Shown: positions 11,150 through 19,600 of the stretch, in pieces
Layout: the number at the start of each line of letters is the position of its first letter
How positions within the stretch are numbered: position 1 is the first letter of the stretch
DNA from: a virus
Length of the DNA: 28,086 nucleotides
Direction: 5' to 3' (one strand)
Virus record (IMG/VR): IMGVR_UViG_3300043395_001441
Coordinates: 1 to 28,086 of that record
Made by a program: the position numbers and the translations under genes
Notes under the pieces: model-generated
Told to the model about the DNA's origin: nothing
Seen by the model: the letters and a program-made list of their open reading frames with translations, nothing else
Databases searched by the model: none

Positions 11150-11458
11150 GTGACAGACAAACAGAAGCGCATGGCTCTGTTGAGTAGGTTTGATAAACAC
11201 TATAAGTTTAAACTAGGACAAGGGCCACAGTATAATAAGTGGATTGAACAATGGTCTGCTGATGCATTAGTAGAGTCTTATGGACTTGATAAATGTTATC
11301 AATTATTAGAATATTATTTTGAAGTTACGGATAATCCAACATGGAATCATTTTGCTTATATTGCACATGATATACTGGAAGCAATACATCAACAACAAAA
11401 AGATTTAGAAGAAAGACAACAACGTAGGGAAAAAGCAAAGGAATGGCTAAGTGAATAA
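11150..11458 (+). CDS. Hypothetical protein upstream of DnaB helicase
   Basis: The product is a 102-aa helical, charged protein starting with GTG one base after the previous stop. It has several aromatic residues (YNKWIEQW, YYFEVTDNPTWNHFAY) and a highly charged C-terminal helix (about residues 83-100). It overlaps the helicase gene by 8 bases, so translation is probably coupled. Position and small size would fit a helicase-loading or helicase-associated factor, but no loader motif is visible, so this remains a guess. Confidence 0.6.
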   Translation: MTDKQKRMALLSRFDKHYKFKLGQGPQYNKWIEQWSADALVESYGLDKCYQLLEYYFEVTDNPTWNHFAYIAHDILEAIHQQQKDLEERQQRREKAKEWLSE

Positions 11459-12677
11459 TTCAGAATCAAAACTTATATCTGCCGTTCTTAAAGATAAGCA
11501 AGCGCATGTTATGCTTCAGGCCAATGTTGAGGGCATACTAAAAACACACTTAGATGTTTGGCAATTTATAAGAAAATATTATGAGCATAATGGAACAGTT
11601 CCTCCAACAGAATTAGTTGTAGAAAAATTTAGAGATTTTGAACCAGTAGATGGAATTGGTTCTACAAAGCATCATCTTGAAGAGTTACAATCTGAATATC
11701 TAGTTAATAGTCTTAAAGATATATTAAGATCTGCTGCGACAGAAGTTCAGGGTGGTCTTGGTGTCGAGGCATTAGAATCTTTAATATCAAAAACAGCAGA
11801 ACTTAGAAAAAACACAGCAGCAATTCGTGATATAGATGTAACAGATTTAGATTCTGCTATTGCATATTTTGAAAATCTTAAAAAGCAACAAGAGGCTGGT
11901 GCCCTTGGAATTAAAACTGGACTTCCAGGATTTGATAATTATTTGCCTTCTGGAATTATGCCAGGACAATTAGGAGTCTTTCTTGCATATCCAGGCATAG
12001 GAAAGTCATGGTTGTCCCTCTATTTTGCTGTACAGGCTTGGAAACAGGGTCGTAGTCCAATGATTATAAGTCTTGAAATGTCTGAGACAGAAGTGCGTAA
12101 TCGTGTATTTGCAATTATGGGCGAAGGATTATGGTCACATCGTAAATTAAGTGCTGGTCAAATTGAAATGGACATGTTGAAATCTTGGCATACTAAAAAT
12201 GTTCAGGGTAGACCAGAATTTCATATCATATCAAACGATACAGGCGGAGATATAACTCCACTAGTTTTGCGTGGCAAAATAGATCAATACAAACCAGACT
12301 TTGTTATTGTAGACTATTTACAATTAATGAGTCCTAATACTAAGTCTGACAATGAAACTATTCGTATGAAAAATCTTTCACGTGAATTAAAGTTAATGGC
12401 AATCGCTGAAGAAGTCCCAATTATTGCCATATCATCTGCTACCCCAGATGATGTCACTAAACTTGAAACAGTTCCAACACTTGGTCAAACAGCATGGTCA
12501 CGTCAAATTGCCTACGATGCTGACTGGGTTCTTGCTTTAGGTAGGGCTACAAATAGCGATATTATAGAGTGCGTATTTCGCAAGAACCGCAATGGTTTTA
12601 TGGGTGAATTTTTAGTTCAGGCTGACTTTGACAAGGGATATTATAGGTATAAAGATTATGAAGATAAGTCAGTATAA
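11451..12677 (+). CDS. dnaB: Replicative DNA helicase, DnaB family
   Basis: The 408-aa protein has an N-terminal helical domain (about residues 1-120) and a RecA-like C-terminal motor. Motifs seen: Walker A YPGIGKSW at 180-187 with K185, the catalytic Glu in SLEMSE (E209), and Walker B FVIVDYLQL with D288. Also present are a sensor-like stretch ISSATPDD and a late FRKNRNG segment with arginines suited to the ring interface. Length is a little short of cellular DnaB (about 450-470 aa) but both domains are present. It starts with GTG overlapping the preceding gene. It would unwind DNA at the fork and recruit the primase encoded just downstream. Confidence 0.9.
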   Translation: MNNSESKLISAVLKDKQAHVMLQANVEGILKTHLDVWQFIRKYYEHNGTVPPTELVVEKFRDFEPVDGIGSTKHHLEELQSEYLVNSLKDILRSAATEVQGGLGVEALESLISKTAELRKNTAAIRDIDVTDLDSAIAYFENLKKQQEAGALGIKTGLPGFDNYLPSGIMPGQLGVFLAYPGIGKSWLSLYFAVQAWKQGRSPMIISLEMSETEVRNRVFAIMGEGLWSHRKLSAGQIEMDMLKSWHTKNVQGRPEFHIISNDTGGDITPLVLRGKIDQYKPDFVIVDYLQLMSPNTKSDNETIRMKNLSRELKLMAIAEEVPIIAISSATPDDVTKLETVPTLGQTAWSRQIAYDADWVLALGRATNSDIIECVFRKNRNGFMGEFLVQADFDKGYYRYKDYEDKSV

Positions 12678-12685
12678 TATGTGCC

Positions 12686-13012
12686 ATGGAGACATATCAG
12701 CACAAACCTATAAAAAGGTTTGGGATGGACGGAATCATTTATGATGATTCCTCTATATATAGACTACAGCAAGAATATATCAGATTATTGGTATCTGAAA
12801 TGCGCTTGTCTGGATATGTTCCAAGATTTGATATTGACCCTCAGTTTACAATAGAATACAATGAAAAAAATAATACATATAATTTTATATTAAGTATATA
12901 TGGAATATATATAGGGAGAAAAAAGAGCGAATGGATACTAGGAATAGACGGTACGAAAGCAGTTCATACACAGCCAACCAGATTAAAAGAGTTCTCTCAG
13001 GATCTGGCATAA
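12686..13012 (+). CDS. Hypothetical protein between helicase and primase
   Basis: The 108-aa product starts at ATG 12686, 8 bases after the helicase stop, without a clear Shine-Dalgarno. The pattern SEMRLSGYVPRFDIDPQFTI followed by YNFILSIYGIYIGRKK suggests one alpha/beta domain; no known motif is seen. Its last 82 bases overlap the primase gene in another frame. I recall similar small proteins beside primases in actinobacterial phages, but the function is not known. Confidence 0.6.
   Translation: METYQHKPIKRFGMDGIIYDDSSIYRLQQEYIRLLVSEMRLSGYVPRFDIDPQFTIEYNEKNNTYNFILSIYGIYIGRKKSEWILGIDGTKAVHTQPTRLKEFSQDLA
12834..12862 (+). promoter_or_regulatory. Possible weak promoter before primase
   Basis: TTGACC at 12834-12839, a 17-base spacer and TACAAT at 12857-12862 match the consensus at 5 of 6 positions in each box. 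A transcript would start near 12869, about 60 bases before the primase ATG. It lies within coding sequence in an AT-rich genome, where such matches can occur by chance. Confidence 0.3.
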
Positions 13013-13875
13013 ATATAGAAAAAGAGGCAGAGTCTGAGTATGTTGTTTTTTGTCCATTTCACTCAAACCATAGGACACCTGCTGCAGAAATAAATAAGTT
13101 TAGTGGATTGTTTTTTTGTTTTTCTTGTAGTCATACTGCAGATTTAATAGAATTAGTTATGCATTGTTCAAATAGAACATATTTTGAGGCTATTAGATTT
13201 ATCAAAAGCAAAGAGGTTGAGGTTGATATTCTTTCTGATATATCTTCTAAGTTAGTAGAAAAAGAAGAATGGTCTGAGTTTGATATCAATGTAATAGATA
13301 GACTTTCCGCTCAGGCATTATCAAGCGACAGAGCCAAACAATATTTTGATGGTAGGAAAATAACAGATAATTCTATTAAAAAATTTAAACTTGGATATTC
13401 TGAAAATCAAGATATGGTAACTATACCTGTTCATAATCATGATGGACTATGTGTTGGATTTGTCGCTAGATCTATAAATGGAAAAGAATTTAAAAATACT
13501 CCAGGACTTCCAAAATCAAAATTACTATTTAATTTAAATCGCATTAAAAATGCAAGTCGTGTATATGTTGTAGAGTCATCATTTGATGCGATAAGACTAG
13601 ATCAGGTTGGTCTACCAGCAGTTGCTACCTTAGGAGCAAATGTATCATCAAAACAAATATCATTGCTTCAAAAATATTTTAACGATATAGTTATTATTGC
13701 TGATAATGATGATGCAGGAAACAACATGAAACAAAAAATATTAGAAAGATTAAATAACTCTGTTTCTATAATAAACCTAGAAAGTAAATATAAAGATATC
13801 GGGGACATGGATGATTCTGATATAATTAAGATAGATAAAAGTTTTACTGATCAAATACAAAGGATGCTAGTATGA
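12931..13875 (+). CDS. DNA primase (CHC2 zinc finger plus TOPRIM)
   Basis: The 314-aa protein starts at ATG 12931 with GGGAG and AAAGAG upstream. A zinc site is formed by C41, H44, C63 and C66 (CPFH and CFSC), the DnaG-type CHC2 finger that recognises the priming site. A shortened RNA-polymerase core follows, with the TOPRIM residues E215 in VYVVESSFDAI and D258/D260 in IIADNDDAGN. It is much shorter than cellular DnaG (about 580 aa) and has no visible helicase-binding domain at the C-terminus. It sits just after the DnaB helicase and overlaps the next gene by an ATGA junction. The primase call is strong; priming specificity is unknown. Confidence 0.88.
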   Translation: MDTRNRRYESSSYTANQIKRVLSGSGINIEKEAESEYVVFCPFHSNHRTPAAEINKFSGLFFCFSCSHTADLIELVMHCSNRTYFEAIRFIKSKEVEVDILSDISSKLVEKEEWSEFDINVIDRLSAQALSSDRAKQYFDGRKITDNSIKKFKLGYSENQDMVTIPVHNHDGLCVGFVARSINGKEFKNTPGLPKSKLLFNLNRIKNASRVYVVESSFDAIRLDQVGLPAVATLGANVSSKQISLLQKYFNDIVIIADNDDAGNNMKQKILERLNNSVSIINLESKYKDIGDMDDSDIIKIDKSFTDQIQRMLV

Positions 13876-14171
13876 AAAATAAAAATCATATGGAATGGTT
13901 ACAGGCTTTAAAAACCATGGGTCATAAAGAATATTGGACAAAGGCAAACATTGTAGAATTTTTTGCTTTTGTTGCCAAAGCAATAATTATTTTACCAGGA
14001 TTACTGTTTGATGTGAGTGTATGGTGGTTTTATATATTTGCATTAGTATCAAGTGTTGGACTTATTTGGTCATCTACTGTTAAAACAATACCTACCCTAA
14101 TTTGGTTTAATATTTTATGGTCAGTCCTTGCAATACTTTATATTGCAAAATATTTTGGAGTTATTCTTTGA
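13872..14171 (+). CDS. Small integral membrane protein coupled to halogenase
   Basis: The 99-aa protein has three hydrophobic segments, about residues 28-48 (IVEFFAFVAKAIIILPGLLF), 49-67 and 72-95, consistent with three transmembrane helices. The N-terminal 25 residues are charged (HMEWLQALKTMGHKEYWTK) and probably cytoplasmic. It joins the primase by an ATGA overlap and the halogenase by a TTGA overlap, so the two genes are likely made together. No signal for holin function other than size and helices is visible; a membrane partner for the halogenase is another possibility. Confidence 0.65.
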   Translation: MKNKNHMEWLQALKTMGHKEYWTKANIVEFFAFVAKAIIILPGLLFDVSVWWFYIFALVSSVGLIWSSTVKTIPTLIWFNILWSVLAILYIAKYFGVIL

Positions 14172-15625
14172 AAGTAGTTGTTGCTGGAGGCGGTACTGCT
14201 GGATATCTTGCTGCTTTAACAATTAATAAAAGATTGCCACACGCAGACATAACGGTAATAGATAGTTCTAGAGTTGGGGTGCTGGGTGCTGGAGAAGGAA
14301 CTACAACTAATTTTGCTTATATTTTTGATGAATTAGAATTACCAATAGATAAATTTATAGAGCATACTGGGTCAACATTAAAGAACGGTATAAAATTTAT
14401 AGGATGGTCTAAAAGACAAGATTCATACTTTCATCCATTAACAAATTATGTATCTGATAATGGTCTTACAAAAGAAGAACAATTAGAATTATTTAAGTTA
14501 GCATCTATAGAAGTTATGTCAAATAATAATAATTTAGATGATATTAATAAAGGGCTTAGTGCTACAAATAAAAATAAACTATCTTGGCCATATATTGGGT
14601 GGCATTTAGATGCTATTAAATTAGCAGAATTTTTTAAAGAAGAGTCAACAAAAAGAGGAATAAAAATAATAGATGATAAAATTAAACATGTTGGAGAGTT
14701 TAATGGAAATATTACTGTTATACACTGTGAGTCTGGTTCTTATCAATGTGATTTTTTAATAGATGCTACTGGATTTAAAAATTTATTTGTTGGGCATCAC
14801 TTACAATCTGAATGGGTTGATACATCAGAAAGTTTGCCTTGTACTAAAGCATTAGCATTCTTTTTACCACAAGATGAAAATTATTCTATGTGTACAGAAA
14901 TTATAGCAATGAAATATGGTTGGGTATGGAAGACACCGTTAAAACATAGATATGGATGCGGATATGTATACGATCCAAAATATACATCTAAGGAAAATGC
15001 ATTAGAAGAAATTTATACTCTTTTTAAAAAAGAAGATGTCAAAGTAGTTAATCATTTTGATTTTAAACCAGGATATTATAAAACACCATGGGTTAAAAAT
15101 TGTTTATCTGTTGGGCTTGCTGCGGGATTCTTTGAACCATTACATGCTACGTCTATTATGCTTACTATATACATGTTAAGATTGTTTACGTCTCCAGAAT
15201 TTTTAACTGAATATACATTAAATAATAATGAAACAGTTATTGAAAAATATAATGATTTGATATTACAAAAAAATAAAGAACTATTAGGATTTATTTATAT
15301 ACATTATTTAACTGACAAAGATAATTCTGAATTTTGGAAAAACTTTAAAATAGAAAATAAAATGCCAGAATATGCAGAAAATGTATTAAGAGAATTAGAT
15401 AAAGATTATATATCACAATACGTTATTTCAAATACTAATAAAACATTTGGATATCAGTCATGGATGACTACATATGTAAATACTGGACAGTTTAATAGAT
15501 CTAATTTGTATTCAGATTTGCAAACTAAGCAAGCATATGATAAACTGTATAATGAAGCAAAAAACTTTGAAGGAATAGATGTTAAAGAGTATTTATCTAA
15601 GCACTTGACAGATATTACCTTTTAA
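14168..15625 (+). CDS. Flavin-dependent (tryptophan) halogenase-like protein
   Basis: I place the start at TTG 14168, which overlaps the upstream TGA and has GGAG seven bases before it; the product is then 485 aa and begins directly with the FAD-binding strand (KVVVAGGGTAGYLAAL). Other family marks are GAGEGTT, KNGIKFIGW containing the candidate catalytic Lys72, and WVWKTP (W252, W254, P257), the halogenase WxWxIP motif with Thr for Ile. At GFFEPLHATSI the position that holds the second catalytic Glu in PrnA and RebH (PLEST) is His326. Overall length matches the family (about 500 aa). It would bind reduced FAD and use halide and oxygen. Substrate and halide are unknown, and activity with His326 is uncertain. 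AT-rich codon use matches the phage, so it is not a recent acquisition. Confidence 0.85.
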   Translation: MKVVVAGGGTAGYLAALTINKRLPHADITVIDSSRVGVLGAGEGTTTNFAYIFDELELPIDKFIEHTGSTLKNGIKFIGWSKRQDSYFHPLTNYVSDNGLTKEEQLELFKLASIEVMSNNNNLDDINKGLSATNKNKLSWPYIGWHLDAIKLAEFFKEESTKRGIKIIDDKIKHVGEFNGNITVIHCESGSYQCDFLIDATGFKNLFVGHHLQSEWVDTSESLPCTKALAFFLPQDENYSMCTEIIAMKYGWVWKTPLKHRYGCGYVYDPKYTSKENALEEIYTLFKKEDVKVVNHFDFKPGYYKTPWVKNCLSVGLAAGFFEPLHATSIMLTIYMLRLFTSPEFLTEYTLNNNETVIEKYNDLILQKNKELLGFIYIHYLTDKDNSEFWKNFKIENKMPEYAENVLRELDKDYISQYVISNTNKTFGYQSWMTTYVNTGQFNRSNLYSDLQTKQAYDKLYNEAKNFEGIDVKEYLSKHLTDITF

Positions 15626-15655: not shown

Positions 15656-16318
15656 ATGAGCGTTATTAAGGGACTAAAAAATATCAACGCCCTGCTCGAT
15701 AAGAAAAATGATGAAGGTGCACCAAAGGTGCGATGGCTCAAGTTGGCAGATGGACAATCTGTAAAGATTAGATTCATCGAAGAACTTGATGAAGATTCTG
15801 CACATTATGTAGAAGATCGTGGTCTTGCACTTGTTGTAAAAGAACATACAAATCCAAAGGACTATAAGCGTAAGGCTGTAGACACAATGGATACAGAAGG
15901 TCGTGACTGGGCTGAAGAGATGTATCGCAAAGATCCAAAGGGAAATAGTGGATGGCGTGGTCGTCTTCGTTTTTATTGTAATGTTCTTGTTGATGATGGG
16001 ATTGAAGATAAGCCCTATGTCGCAATTTGGTCTATGGGTGTAAGCAAGCAATCCGCATTCAATACAATTCGTGAATATGCACTAGAAACTGGTAGCATTT
16101 CAAATTTACAATGGAAGTTAAAGCGTAATGGTCAGGGAACTGAAACATCTTATACTTTAATTCCATCTGCTCCAGATAAGGAGCCATTTAAGTGGGAAGG
16201 TATTGAGCCATACCCATTGGAGAAGGCGCTTCGTCGTGTGCCATATGCCGAACAAGAAGCATTTTATCTTGGATTCGACTCTCCATCTACTACATCAGCG
16301 ACAAACATCGACTGGTAG
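15656..16318 (+). CDS. Single-stranded DNA-binding protein (gp32-like)
   Basis: The 220-aa protein begins with SVIKGLKNINALLDKKNDEG and WLKLADGQSVKIRFI. It continues with an OB-fold-like core including RGRLRFYCNVLVDDG, YVAIWSMGVSKQSAFNTI and NLQWKLKRNGQGT, a pattern I associate with phage gp32-type ssDNA-binding proteins. A zinc-binding Cys cluster as in T4 gp32 is not evident; only one Cys remains. It coats single strands during replication and recombination. Strong expression is indicated by a consensus promoter, an AAAGGAG site, and codon use that differs from the neighbours: 12 of 13 Arg codons are CGN, whereas AGA dominates elsewhere. It is followed by the polymerase and recombinase genes it would serve. 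Confidence 0.75.
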   Translation: MSVIKGLKNINALLDKKNDEGAPKVRWLKLADGQSVKIRFIEELDEDSAHYVEDRGLALVVKEHTNPKDYKRKAVDTMDTEGRDWAEEMYRKDPKGNSGWRGRLRFYCNVLVDDGIEDKPYVAIWSMGVSKQSAFNTIREYALETGSISNLQWKLKRNGQGTETSYTLIPSAPDKEPFKWEGIEPYPLEKALRRVPYAEQEAFYLGFDSPSTTSATNIDW

Positions 16319-16321
16319 TAG

Positions 16322-19300
16322 ATGAACTACGTACCACTTCATTTACATACTCATTTTTCACTATTTGACGGAATTGGGTTGCCGTCTGAATATGTTGAAC
16401 GTGCTAAAAACTTGGGTATGCCTGCAATATCGATTACAGACCATGGCTCCCTTTCTGGCCATAGAGAGATGTATCGTGTTGCTAAAGCAAGTGGTATAAA
16501 GCCTATTCTTGGCATAGAAGGTTATATGTGTGAGGATCGCTTTGATCAAAGAGATAAAGGCGAAAGAACCGATCAACTAGATATGGTTTATAACCATATA
16601 ATCCTTCTAGCCAAGAACAAGGTTGGTTTAGAAAATCTGAATAAATTAAATGAAATTGCTTGGACAGAAGGTTATTACAAAAAACCCAGAATAGATTTTG
16701 AAGTTCTTTCCAAATACAAAGAAGGCATAATTGTATCTTCTGCATGCCCAAGCGGAATTGTTGCCAAATCAATTGAACTTGGTGAACTTGGTATGGCAAA
16801 GAAATATATTAAATGGTTTAAAGAAGAATTTGGTGGTGATTATTATCTTGAGGTAATGCCACATAATAATGAATCAATTAATAGAACAATTTTACAGTTA
16901 GCAGATGAATTTAATATTAAGCCAATTGTAACTCCAGACTGTCATCATGTTGATCAATCACAAAAAGAGATTCAAGAATTAAAATTAATTCTTAATACAT
17001 ACTCTAATAAGATTCAAAAAGATGCTACATATGAAAAGTCTAAAAAGCAAGGTGACTTAATGAAGCGTCTTGATTATTTATATGGTGCTGATAGACAGAT
17101 GTCATTTAATAAGTTTGATATTCATCTATTATCTTATGAAGAAATCAAAGAGGCAATGGAAAAGCAGGCGGTATGGAGAACTGACATTTATGAAAATACT
17201 ATTGATCTTGCCAATAAGATTGAAGATTATGACATACAAGATGGATTAAATTTATTGCCAGTTCAATATAAAAATCCAGATAAACAATTAAAAGAACTGG
17301 CTATTGAGGGTTTGAAAGATAAAGGGCTTGACACTAATCAAGAATATCTTGATAGACTTGAAGAAGAATTAAAAGTTATTAAAGATAAAAATTTTGGACC
17401 TTATTTTCTAGTTGTACAAAGCATGATTTCATGGGCTAAAAAAGAAGGAATCATGGTTGGTCCAGGTCGTGGATCTTCTGCTGGATCTCTTTTGTGTTAT
17501 GCATTAGGTATTACAGATATTGACCCATTAAAACACGGACTTCTATTCTTCCGATTTATTAATCCAGAGCGTAATGACTTTCCAGATATTGATACAGATA
17601 TTCAAGATTCTCGTCGTGACGAAGTAAAAGATTATCTTGTTAGACAATATAAGCATGTTGCTTCTATTGCTACATTTTTAGAATTTAAGGATAAAGGTGT
17701 TGTGCGAGATGTTGCTCGTGCATTAAATATTCCATTGGCAGATGTAAACAAAGTATTAAAGTTAGTAGATACATGGGATGAATATTGTACTTCAAAAACA
17801 ACTGCATGGTTTAGAGAAAAATATCCAGAGGTGGAGCAATATGGAGAACAACTTCGTGGCCGTATTAGAGGTACTGGCATACATGCTGCTGGTGTTGTCA
17901 CTAGTAAAAATCCTATTTTTAGGTACGCACCGATGGAGACACGCAACTCTCCTGGCAGCGATGATCGTATACCAGTTGTGGCAGTTGATATGGAAGAGGC
18001 TGAAAAAATCGGACTCATCAAAATCGACGCACTTGGTCTTAAAACTTTAAGTGTTATTAATGATACCTTAAATATTATTAAGGAAAGAGAAGGAACAGAA
18101 ATAAATCTTTTAGGACTAGACATGCAAGACCAAAAGGTTTACCAAATGCTTTCTGAAGGCTATACAAAAGGTGTATTTCAATGTGAAGCAACACCATACA
18201 CAAACCTTTTAGTTAAAATGGGAGTAAAAAATCTTGCTGAATTGGCTGCATCAAATGCTCTTGTTCGCCCAGGAGCCATGAATACTATTGGAAAAGATTA
18301 TATTGAAAGAAAGCATGGTAGGCAGTCAGTTAATTATTTGCACCAAACCATGAAACCTTTTACAGAAGAAACATATGGGTGTATCCTATACCAAGAGCAG
18401 GTTATGCAAGCCTGTGTTCAGTTGGGAGGAATGTCGTGGTCTGAGGCTGATAAAGTTCGTAAGATCATTGGTAAAAAGAAAGATGCTAGAGAGTTTGATG
18501 CGTTTCGTGATAAGTTCGTTGATGGTGCTTCTAAGTTTATTAGTCCTAATCAGGCTCGTGATTTATGGCATGACTTTGAGGCGCATGCGGGTTATTCGTT
18601 CAACAAGTCTCATGCGGTTGCTTACTCTACGCTCTCGTATTGGACGGCATGGCTAAAGTATTATTATCCAATTGAGTTTATGTACTCATTGCTAAAAAAT
18701 GAAAGGGACAAGGATGCACGAACTGAATATCTTATTGAAGCGAAAAGAATGGGCATTAGCATTAAGTTGCCTCACATTAATGATTCGGATATTGATTTTA
18801 AAATTGAGGGTAAGGGTATTCGGTTTGGACTCTCGGGGATCAAGTTCATCTCTGATAAAATTGCAGAACGCTATATATCGGCACGACCTTTTAAATCTTT
18901 TGAAGCACTTAGAGATTTCACGTTTACAAAAGGAAATGGAGTAAACAGTAGAGCATTGGAAGCATTAAGAGTTATTGGTGCTGCAACATTTCCAGATAAT
19001 CCAAGAAATGATAATGAGATTCGTGAAAATCTTTATGAATATTTAGGTTTGCCAGAATTCACGCAGACAGTTCCATCACACTATCATGCTTTTATAAATC
19101 CTGTAGAAGATTTTGAAGAAAAAGGATCTTTTATTCTTATGGGAATGGTTAAAGGAATTAAGCGTGGCAAAGGTTGGTCTCGTGTAGAAATATTAGATAA
19201 GACTGGAAGCATAGGAGTATTTGATGAAGAGCAAACAACAATTGAGGCTGGACGAAGTTATATTGCACTCTGTTCTGATAATAGAATTGTTAGTGCTGTT

Positions 19301-19600
19301 CCTGTGGATGAAATAAAAAATTCAGATGCTGCATTAATTAAGTTTTTAAATTACAGGATGTTACCATACAAAGATGATGAACTATTTGTAATATCATTCA
19401 AGCCTAGAATAACAAAAGCAGGCAAAAAAATGGCTTCTTTAACTTTGGCAGATACTTCTAGAGAACTTCATCCAGTAACAGTATTTCCTACTGCATTTGC
19501 TAAAGCATATATGAAGATTGAAGAAGGACATGCATATAAATTTGAATTGGGTAAAACTAAAGACGGTACAGTAATATTGGAGGATATAAATGTCGGTTAG
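16322..19600 (+). CDS. dnaE: DNA polymerase III alpha subunit (DnaE) with PHP domain
   Basis: The 1092-aa product is close to the size of bacterial DnaE1. The N-terminal PHP domain has HLHTHFSLFDG, ISITDHGSLSGH, EGYM and TPDCHHVD, so metal-binding His and Asp residues look intact. The polymerase core has PGRGSSAGS (about 381-389) and the catalytic Asp pair in PDIDTD (D422, D424), with the third Asp in LIKIDALGLKT (D569). HAAGVV and GYSFNKSHAVAYS also match family C polymerases. Residues about 910-1092 form one or two OB-like domains. The start follows the SSB stop by three bases without a clear binding site, suggesting coupling. It is the replicative polymerase of this phage. An internal stretch near 18360-18880 is unusually GC-rich. 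Confidence 0.95.
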   Translation: MNYVPLHLHTHFSLFDGIGLPSEYVERAKNLGMPAISITDHGSLSGHREMYRVAKASGIKPILGIEGYMCEDRFDQRDKGERTDQLDMVYNHIILLAKNKVGLENLNKLNEIAWTEGYYKKPRIDFEVLSKYKEGIIVSSACPSGIVAKSIELGELGMAKKYIKWFKEEFGGDYYLEVMPHNNESINRTILQLADEFNIKPIVTPDCHHVDQSQKEIQELKLILNTYSNKIQKDATYEKSKKQGDLMKRLDYLYGADRQMSFNKFDIHLLSYEEIKEAMEKQAVWRTDIYENTIDLANKIEDYDIQDGLNLLPVQYKNPDKQLKELAIEGLKDKGLDTNQEYLDRLEEELKVIKDKNFGPYFLVVQSMISWAKKEGIMVGPGRGSSAGSLLCYALGITDIDPLKHGLLFFRFINPERNDFPDIDTDIQDSRRDEVKDYLVRQYKHVASIATFLEFKDKGVVRDVARALNIPLADVNKVLKLVDTWDEYCTSKTTAWFREKYPEVEQYGEQLRGRIRGTGIHAAGVVTSKNPIFRYAPMETRNSPGSDDRIPVVAVDMEEAEKIGLIKIDALGLKTLSVINDTLNIIKEREGTEINLLGLDMQDQKVYQMLSEGYTKGVFQCEATPYTNLLVKMGVKNLAELAASNALVRPGAMNTIGKDYIERKHGRQSVNYLHQTMKPFTEETYGCILYQEQVMQACVQLGGMSWSEADKVRKIIGKKKDAREFDAFRDKFVDGASKFISPNQARDLWHDFEAHAGYSFNKSHAVAYSTLSYWTAWLKYYYPIEFMYSLLKNERDKDARTEYLIEAKRMGISIKLPHINDSDIDFKIEGKGIRFGLSGIKFISDKIAERYISARPFKSFEALRDFTFTKGNGVNSRALEALRVIGAATFPDNPRNDNEIRENLYEYLGLPEFTQTVPSHYHAFINPVEDFEEKGSFILMGMVKGIKRGKGWSRVEILDKTGSIGVFDEEQTTIEAGRSYIALCSDNRIVSAVPVDEIKNSDAALIKFLNYRMLPYKDDELFVISFKPRITKAGKKMASLTLADTSRELHPVTVFPTAFAKAYMKIEEGHAYKFELGKTKDGTVILEDINVG

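Follow-up and report, generated by a model that had tools for sequence, protein, structure and literature searches.

A stretch of viral DNA of 28,086 nucleotides (IMG/VR record IMGVR_UViG_3300043395_001441, hereafter the window) encodes a flavin-dependent halogenase in which a histidine occupies the place of the catalytic glutamate. The locus raises the question of whether this residue is genuine and, if so, what chemistry the enzyme performs. In PrnA, Lys79 has been described as holding and polarizing HOCl, with Glu346 serving to anchor the indole NH and to accept the proton of the Wheland intermediate (PMC5727139, PMC9764358). The role of the active-site Glu is debated, and it has been regarded as a proton acceptor, a substrate anchor, or a holder of hypohalous acid, HOX (PMC8407142, PMC9764358, PMC5727139). 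This question becomes directly testable with a natural His enzyme under selection, Gln enzymes that also occur naturally, and a Glu enzyme from the same phage, and the response of a His base to pH would be an easy readout.

Family, fold, and active-site residues of the halogenase

The open reading frame starts with a TTG codon at position 14168 that overlaps the upstream stop, and its own stop ends at 15625. Its product matched PF04820 over residues 2-441 (E-value 1.1e-88; 298.6 bits against a curated Pfam cut-off of 21), hence as a full-length family member, and it also matched phrog_2928 (tryptophan halogenase). The gene and its main residues are as follows:

14168..15625, + strand: flavin-dependent halogenase of the His type, 485 amino acids (PF04820, phrog_2928, and fold matches)
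14186..14203, + strand: GGGTAG, the FAD-binding GxGxxG motif, residues 7-12
14381..14383, + strand: catalytic lysine K72, equivalent to PrnA K79 (PrnA alignment)
14921..14938, + strand: WVWKTP, a variant of the WxWxIP motif, residues 252-257
15143..15145, + strand: His326 (CAT codon), which aligns with PrnA Glu346

A structure model built from 38 aligned sequences had a pLDDT of 87.1 and a pTM of 0.88; a single-sequence model, with a pLDDT of 34.4, was set aside. The halogenase fold was confirmed for the model, with Foldseek TMq values of 0.77-0.84 among the 50 matches listed and Z-scores of up to 50.5 (SttH 50.5, PrnA 4z43 46.6, and VirX1 38.2). PrnA, RebH, PyrH, and SttH superposed on the model over about 450-458 residues (Z 41-50.5), and weaker fold matches were obtained for CndH and Bmp2 of other subfamilies (Z 32.6 and 31.9, respectively). 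By sequence and predicted fold, the product is a full-length PF04820 flavin-dependent halogenase.

A preliminary description of this DNA had proposed a phage halogenase whose catalytic Glu is replaced by His, a reading that the PrnA alignment, the PF04820 match, and the predicted fold all bore out; the FAD-binding GGGTAG, the WxW-KTP, and the catalytic Lys that it named were also present. In the phmmer alignment with PrnA, residue 326 was paired with PrnA 346 and residue 72 with PrnA 79, and therefore His replaces Glu346 and K72 is the catalytic Lys. LKNGIKF contains two Lys residues, of which K72 comes first; K76 is variable among relatives and was ruled out as the catalytic residue, since PrnA K79 aligns with K72 and K76 is replaced by Arg in the relatives at about 72% identity. 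Among the family members encoded in the 80 listed loci, the catalytic-Lys column held Lys wherever it was filled, and G7, G9, and G12 of the FAD motif were invariant across aligned relatives.

His326 lies in the block EPLHATSI (residues 323-330), where PrnA Ser347 corresponds to Ala327 and PrnA Thr348 to the retained Thr328. The preliminary description had read PLHAT as a double replacement. The change of Glu to His326 stood, while that of Ser to Ala327 is present but was ruled out as a special change, because Ala is the commonest residue at this position among Glu-type viral relatives (39 of 46 distinct sequences). PrnA uses Thr348 and the residue that follows it to bind chloride close to the flavin. 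A changed halide preference, also suggested earlier, found no support, as Thr328 is kept and the Ser-to-Ala change is usual among viral relatives. A different residue may have assumed the role of the Glu, the other option raised earlier.

Rather than the WxWxIP motif of the PrnA type, a variant was found that retains both Trp residues and the Pro, with Thr in place of Ile. Thr occupied this place in all nine distinct His-type sequences and Ile in 44 of the 46 Glu-type sequences; one Glu-type enzyme (L034) likewise had Thr. The WxWxIP motif has been suggested to prevent monooxygenase activity (PMC5945002), and its uniform alteration in the His type would suit a flavin monooxygenase that has lost halogenation. 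However, both Trp residues and the essential Lys are retained, and the Thr is shared with a Glu-type enzyme, so that such a loss of function appears improbable. In addition, the C-terminal Trp-binding motif, given as YYHGF..YS in PyrH (PMC8269204), was not kept: PyrH YYHGFETYSW aligned with NTNKTFGYQSW in the window halogenase.

Compared with PrnA, RebH, and PyrH (variant A, PF04820), to which it is 21-25% identical in structure alignments, the window enzyme thus shares the fold, the FAD motif, the catalytic Lys, the two Trp residues of WxWxIP, and the Thr of the PLEST block, but differs in the His for Glu346, the Thr for Ile, and the C-terminal motif. VirX1 of cyanophage Syn10 (PDB 6qgm), which the preliminary description had correctly named as a viral halogenase, is likewise a phage-encoded PF04820 protein, but it keeps the normal Glu (EPLESTG) and WVWNIP, and the two enzymes are not close kin (358 aligned columns, about 27% identical). 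The His-type halogenase is a variant within a known kind of enzyme and not a new kind.

Distribution, descent, and selection of the His form

A protein scan of IMG/VR with the halogenase identified 53 loci, where His was found in 12 (three of them 99% and nine about 72% identical) and Glu in all remaining loci that reach the site; one locus (L052) ends before it. With a later contig at 83-84% identity (L133), the His type comprised 14 IMG/VR contigs, the window and 13 others, at identities down to 71%. Relatives thus share the His, as the preliminary description had proposed to check, and they all belong to one clade. The 13 other contigs carry 13 different IMG/VR dataset numbers and form several sub-lineages at 71-99% identity, and hence the probability that the His reflects a sequencing or assembly error or a misreading is negligible.

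A motif scan of IMG/VR for His or Gln codons at the site yielded 73 stretches (L061-L133), of which 13 had His, all from the same clade, and 60 had Gln. The identical scan over 84,980 cellular species yielded 16 stretches, six of them family members, all with Gln: five from Streptomyces and one from Wenjunlia (L136, L139, L140, L144, L148, and L149). A His-type halogenase was not found in this exact-motif scan of cellular species; both scans depend on exact spacing, and their counts are not exhaustive. A scan allowing any codon at the site gave at least 80 loci; among the 80 listed, the family members carried 92 Glu, five Gln, and one Met, where the sole Met belonged to a divergent paralogue. 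No halogenase with His at the PrnA Glu346 position was named in the titles and openings of abstracts covered by a literature search, which is a weak negative.

Several further variants of the site were observed. Gln also occurred in L058, and a Gln and a Glu halogenase were present together in several phages (L065, L070, and L074). Among the Gln types, a His was located five residues downstream in 45 of 51 distinct sequences and a Phe in the other six. A halogenase-like protein of Actinomycetia phage DSL-LC01 (L355:5836-7407) carried EPLDFSS, in which Asp stands in place of the Glu; it is distant, and its FAD loop seems altered. In addition, divergent family members of 416-428 amino acids near normal halogenases were without the PLEST block:

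L066:3325-4608: motif EPMFANS
L155:12097-13347: motif DPHGALP
L156:10546-11793: motif EPAMSMP

A quick tree was constructed from 152 representatives under LG+G4, with SH-aLRT support only and with the Glu/His site column left out. The His types formed a single branch (SH-aLRT 100) nested inside a set of 33 Glu and five His rows (support 99), while well-supported branches forced at least four label changes for Gln. Gln-type phage halogenases such as that of S-PM2 (EPLQATSIH) resemble the His type in a natural loss of the carboxylate with the Lys kept, but differ in the residue at the site and in their positions on the tree.

Within the His clade, dN/dS was about 0.08-0.20 at amino-acid identities down to 71%, where the values obtained by comparing the window gene and the copy 99% identical to it with the 72% group are rough, as dS exceeded 1. 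The His codon was CAT in all seven copies compared, and no internal stop was found in any of the 13 His records searched. Low dN/dS at such divergence indicates that the His form is maintained, and the His is neither an error nor decay.

Genomic context of the halogenase

The halogenase lies within a replication module, whose genes are as follows:

11451..12677, + strand: DnaB-like helicase
12931..13875, + strand: primase (Zn-ribbon, Toprim), the upstream border of the slot
13872..14171, + strand: mem99, a hydrophobic protein of 99 amino acids and probable multi-pass membrane protein, upstream of the halogenase
15656..16318, + strand: single-strand DNA-binding protein, SSB (phrog_9721), the downstream border of the slot
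16322..19600, + strand: DnaE-like DNA polymerase III alpha

The primase frame and a phrog_17515 frame (12686-13012) overlap by 82 nucleotides in different frames, and the primase may actually begin at a codon further downstream. As far as the loci reach, the order DnaB, primase, mem99, halogenase, SSB, and Pol III alpha was kept throughout the His clade. The Pol III alpha was 55.5% identical to its counterpart in Streptomyces phage BillNye, the phage matches of the SSB were confined to Streptomyces (127) and Rhodococcus (9) phages, and a WhiB protein was encoded in four of six records searched, where a control with the WhiB family gave a match in Corynebacterium only among 14 genomes. These results suggest that the host is probably an actinobacterium. 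As to capture of the gene from a host, the halogenase had no match in 166 genomes of one order, a search with no positive control that shows little. A PF01613 flavin reductase was absent from all six records searched, several of which are fragments, suggesting that reduced flavin is probably supplied by the host.

Phages sharing 92-96% identity with the window in DnaB and SSB differed in the content of the slot. For example, L279, L287, and L350 carried a Glu-type halogenase only 37-41% identical to the His enzyme, while the close relative L341 had no halogenase in the slot. Hence, the halogenase appears to be an exchangeable allele.

A PF04820 search of the His contigs of at least 65 kb identified a second halogenase in four of five (121.9, 75.9, 123.5, and 66.1 kb) and none in the fifth (65.3 kb); none was found in the 28-kb window, where the His gene stands alone. 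In these second enzymes the Glu (within EPLESTGLLL) and the Lys are present and the Trp motif reads WIWNIP or WVWNIP, and the two compared with VirX1 were 38-39% identical to it, and thus nearer to VirX1 than the His enzyme is. In the one contig examined, the second gene was near 2OG-Fe(II) oxygenase and sulfotransferase-like genes. The presence of this Glu enzyme, together with the empty slot of L341, could suggest that the His gene is a decaying or neutral allele and that its function is carried out by the VirX1-like enzyme of these phages. The low dN/dS, the invariant CAT codon, and the intact frames argue against such an allele, and the second enzyme shares only about 25% identity with the His enzyme in all four contigs and is sited elsewhere in the genome, which makes decay very unlikely.

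The gene upstream of the halogenase showed a linkage of its own. Loci of mem99 were fetched with up to 4 kb on either side, and the best 80 of 96 were considered. A halogenase was encoded in 49 of these 80, unrelated phages included, and 47 halogenase genes were located within 150 nt of mem99, one of them on the opposite strand. Of the 47, 30 lay outside the replication slot, either before or after mem99, where mem99 also accompanied Glu halogenases of unrelated phages. In reverse, of 319 halogenase genes from the loci gathered before, 36 had mem99 on the same strand and no more than 200 nt away, a count with many near-copies to which the His clade contributes 22. The link between mem99 and the halogenase is strong but not obligatory, as no halogenase was found in 31 of the best 80 loci, some of them truncated at the end of a contig. 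In 60 sequences, which were picked by likeness to the window copy, about 55 of the 99 columns of mem99 reached a conservation of 90% or more. No match for mem99 was found in Pfam, PHROGs, or the phage collection; none was found in a sample of 396 Actinomycetota genomes out of a larger group, a search with no positive control that shows little. By profile, mem99 was also absent from the halogenase loci of S-PM2, S-H38, HTVC008M, and Syn10, and small open reading frames were observed at a similar position in S-PM2 and S-H38. The linkage of mem99 offers a first handle on the site of action of some phage halogenases.

Proposed catalytic role of the histidine

Judging from the conserved and replaced residues, it appears moderately probable that the window enzyme is a working halogenase that uses Lys-directed hypohalite chemistry, with His as the substrate-side base, on a substrate richer in electrons than tryptophan. 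Such an enzyme would have originated from a Glu-type phage halogenase by a swap of the substrate-side Glu for His. FAD reduced by a host reductase would yield hypohalous acid with oxygen and halide; the acid would pass to Lys72, be held and polarized there, and attack an aromatic substrate, while the neutral His326 would serve as a base or hydrogen-bond partner in place of Glu. The substrate would be phenol-like or otherwise ring-activated, with no need for a carboxylate, rather than free tryptophan. An electron-rich substrate seems likeliest because the Lys is kept, the Glu is lost, and the Trp-binding motif is not kept. The phenol FAD halogenases, described as being without the Glu as a group (PMC8407142), resemble the His type in this respect. 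Three other sites are fixed in the His clade and rare in Glu types, namely residues 91 (PrnA F103; Phe to Leu), 256 (Ile to Thr), and 331 (Trp to Met), as a changed substrate would predict, though these may reflect drift, since the nearest Glu-type relatives are only about 40% identical. An in vivo substrate of phage halogenases was not named in the portions of the literature covered.

In PrnA, the E346Q replacement was reported to slow the reaction about 100-fold and K79A to abolish it (PMC5727139). Simulations of PrnA required a deprotonated Glu for holding HOCl and orienting Trp, suggesting that His could weaken catalysis, and in them Glu346 and Lys79 held HOCl jointly (PMC9764358). Hence, the His enzyme could instead serve as a source of hypohalous acid, which would be made at the flavin, leak unheld, and act broadly, perhaps at the membrane next to mem99. 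Tryptophan halogenases have been reported to leak HOX (PMC7948982), and the halogenase is linked to the hydrophobic mem99. However, Lys72 and most other conserved positions are retained under purifying selection, and mem99 accompanies Glu enzymes too and so leaves the His unexplained; a leaking enzyme is therefore considered unlikely. Relative to the favored Lys-directed halogenase, a bolder and less probable extension is that these actinobacteriophages carry two divergent halogenases, Lys-Glu and Lys-His, where the Lys-His enzyme might represent a distinct catalytic type with a non-indole substrate, possibly acting at the membrane with mem99.

Syn10 was also observed to encode a second halogenase, in tandem with VirX1 (L056:2932-6037, where VirX1 is L056:4445-6037). 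In the Syn10 record, VirX1 is annotated as a hypothetical protein and its neighbor as a tryptophan halogenase.
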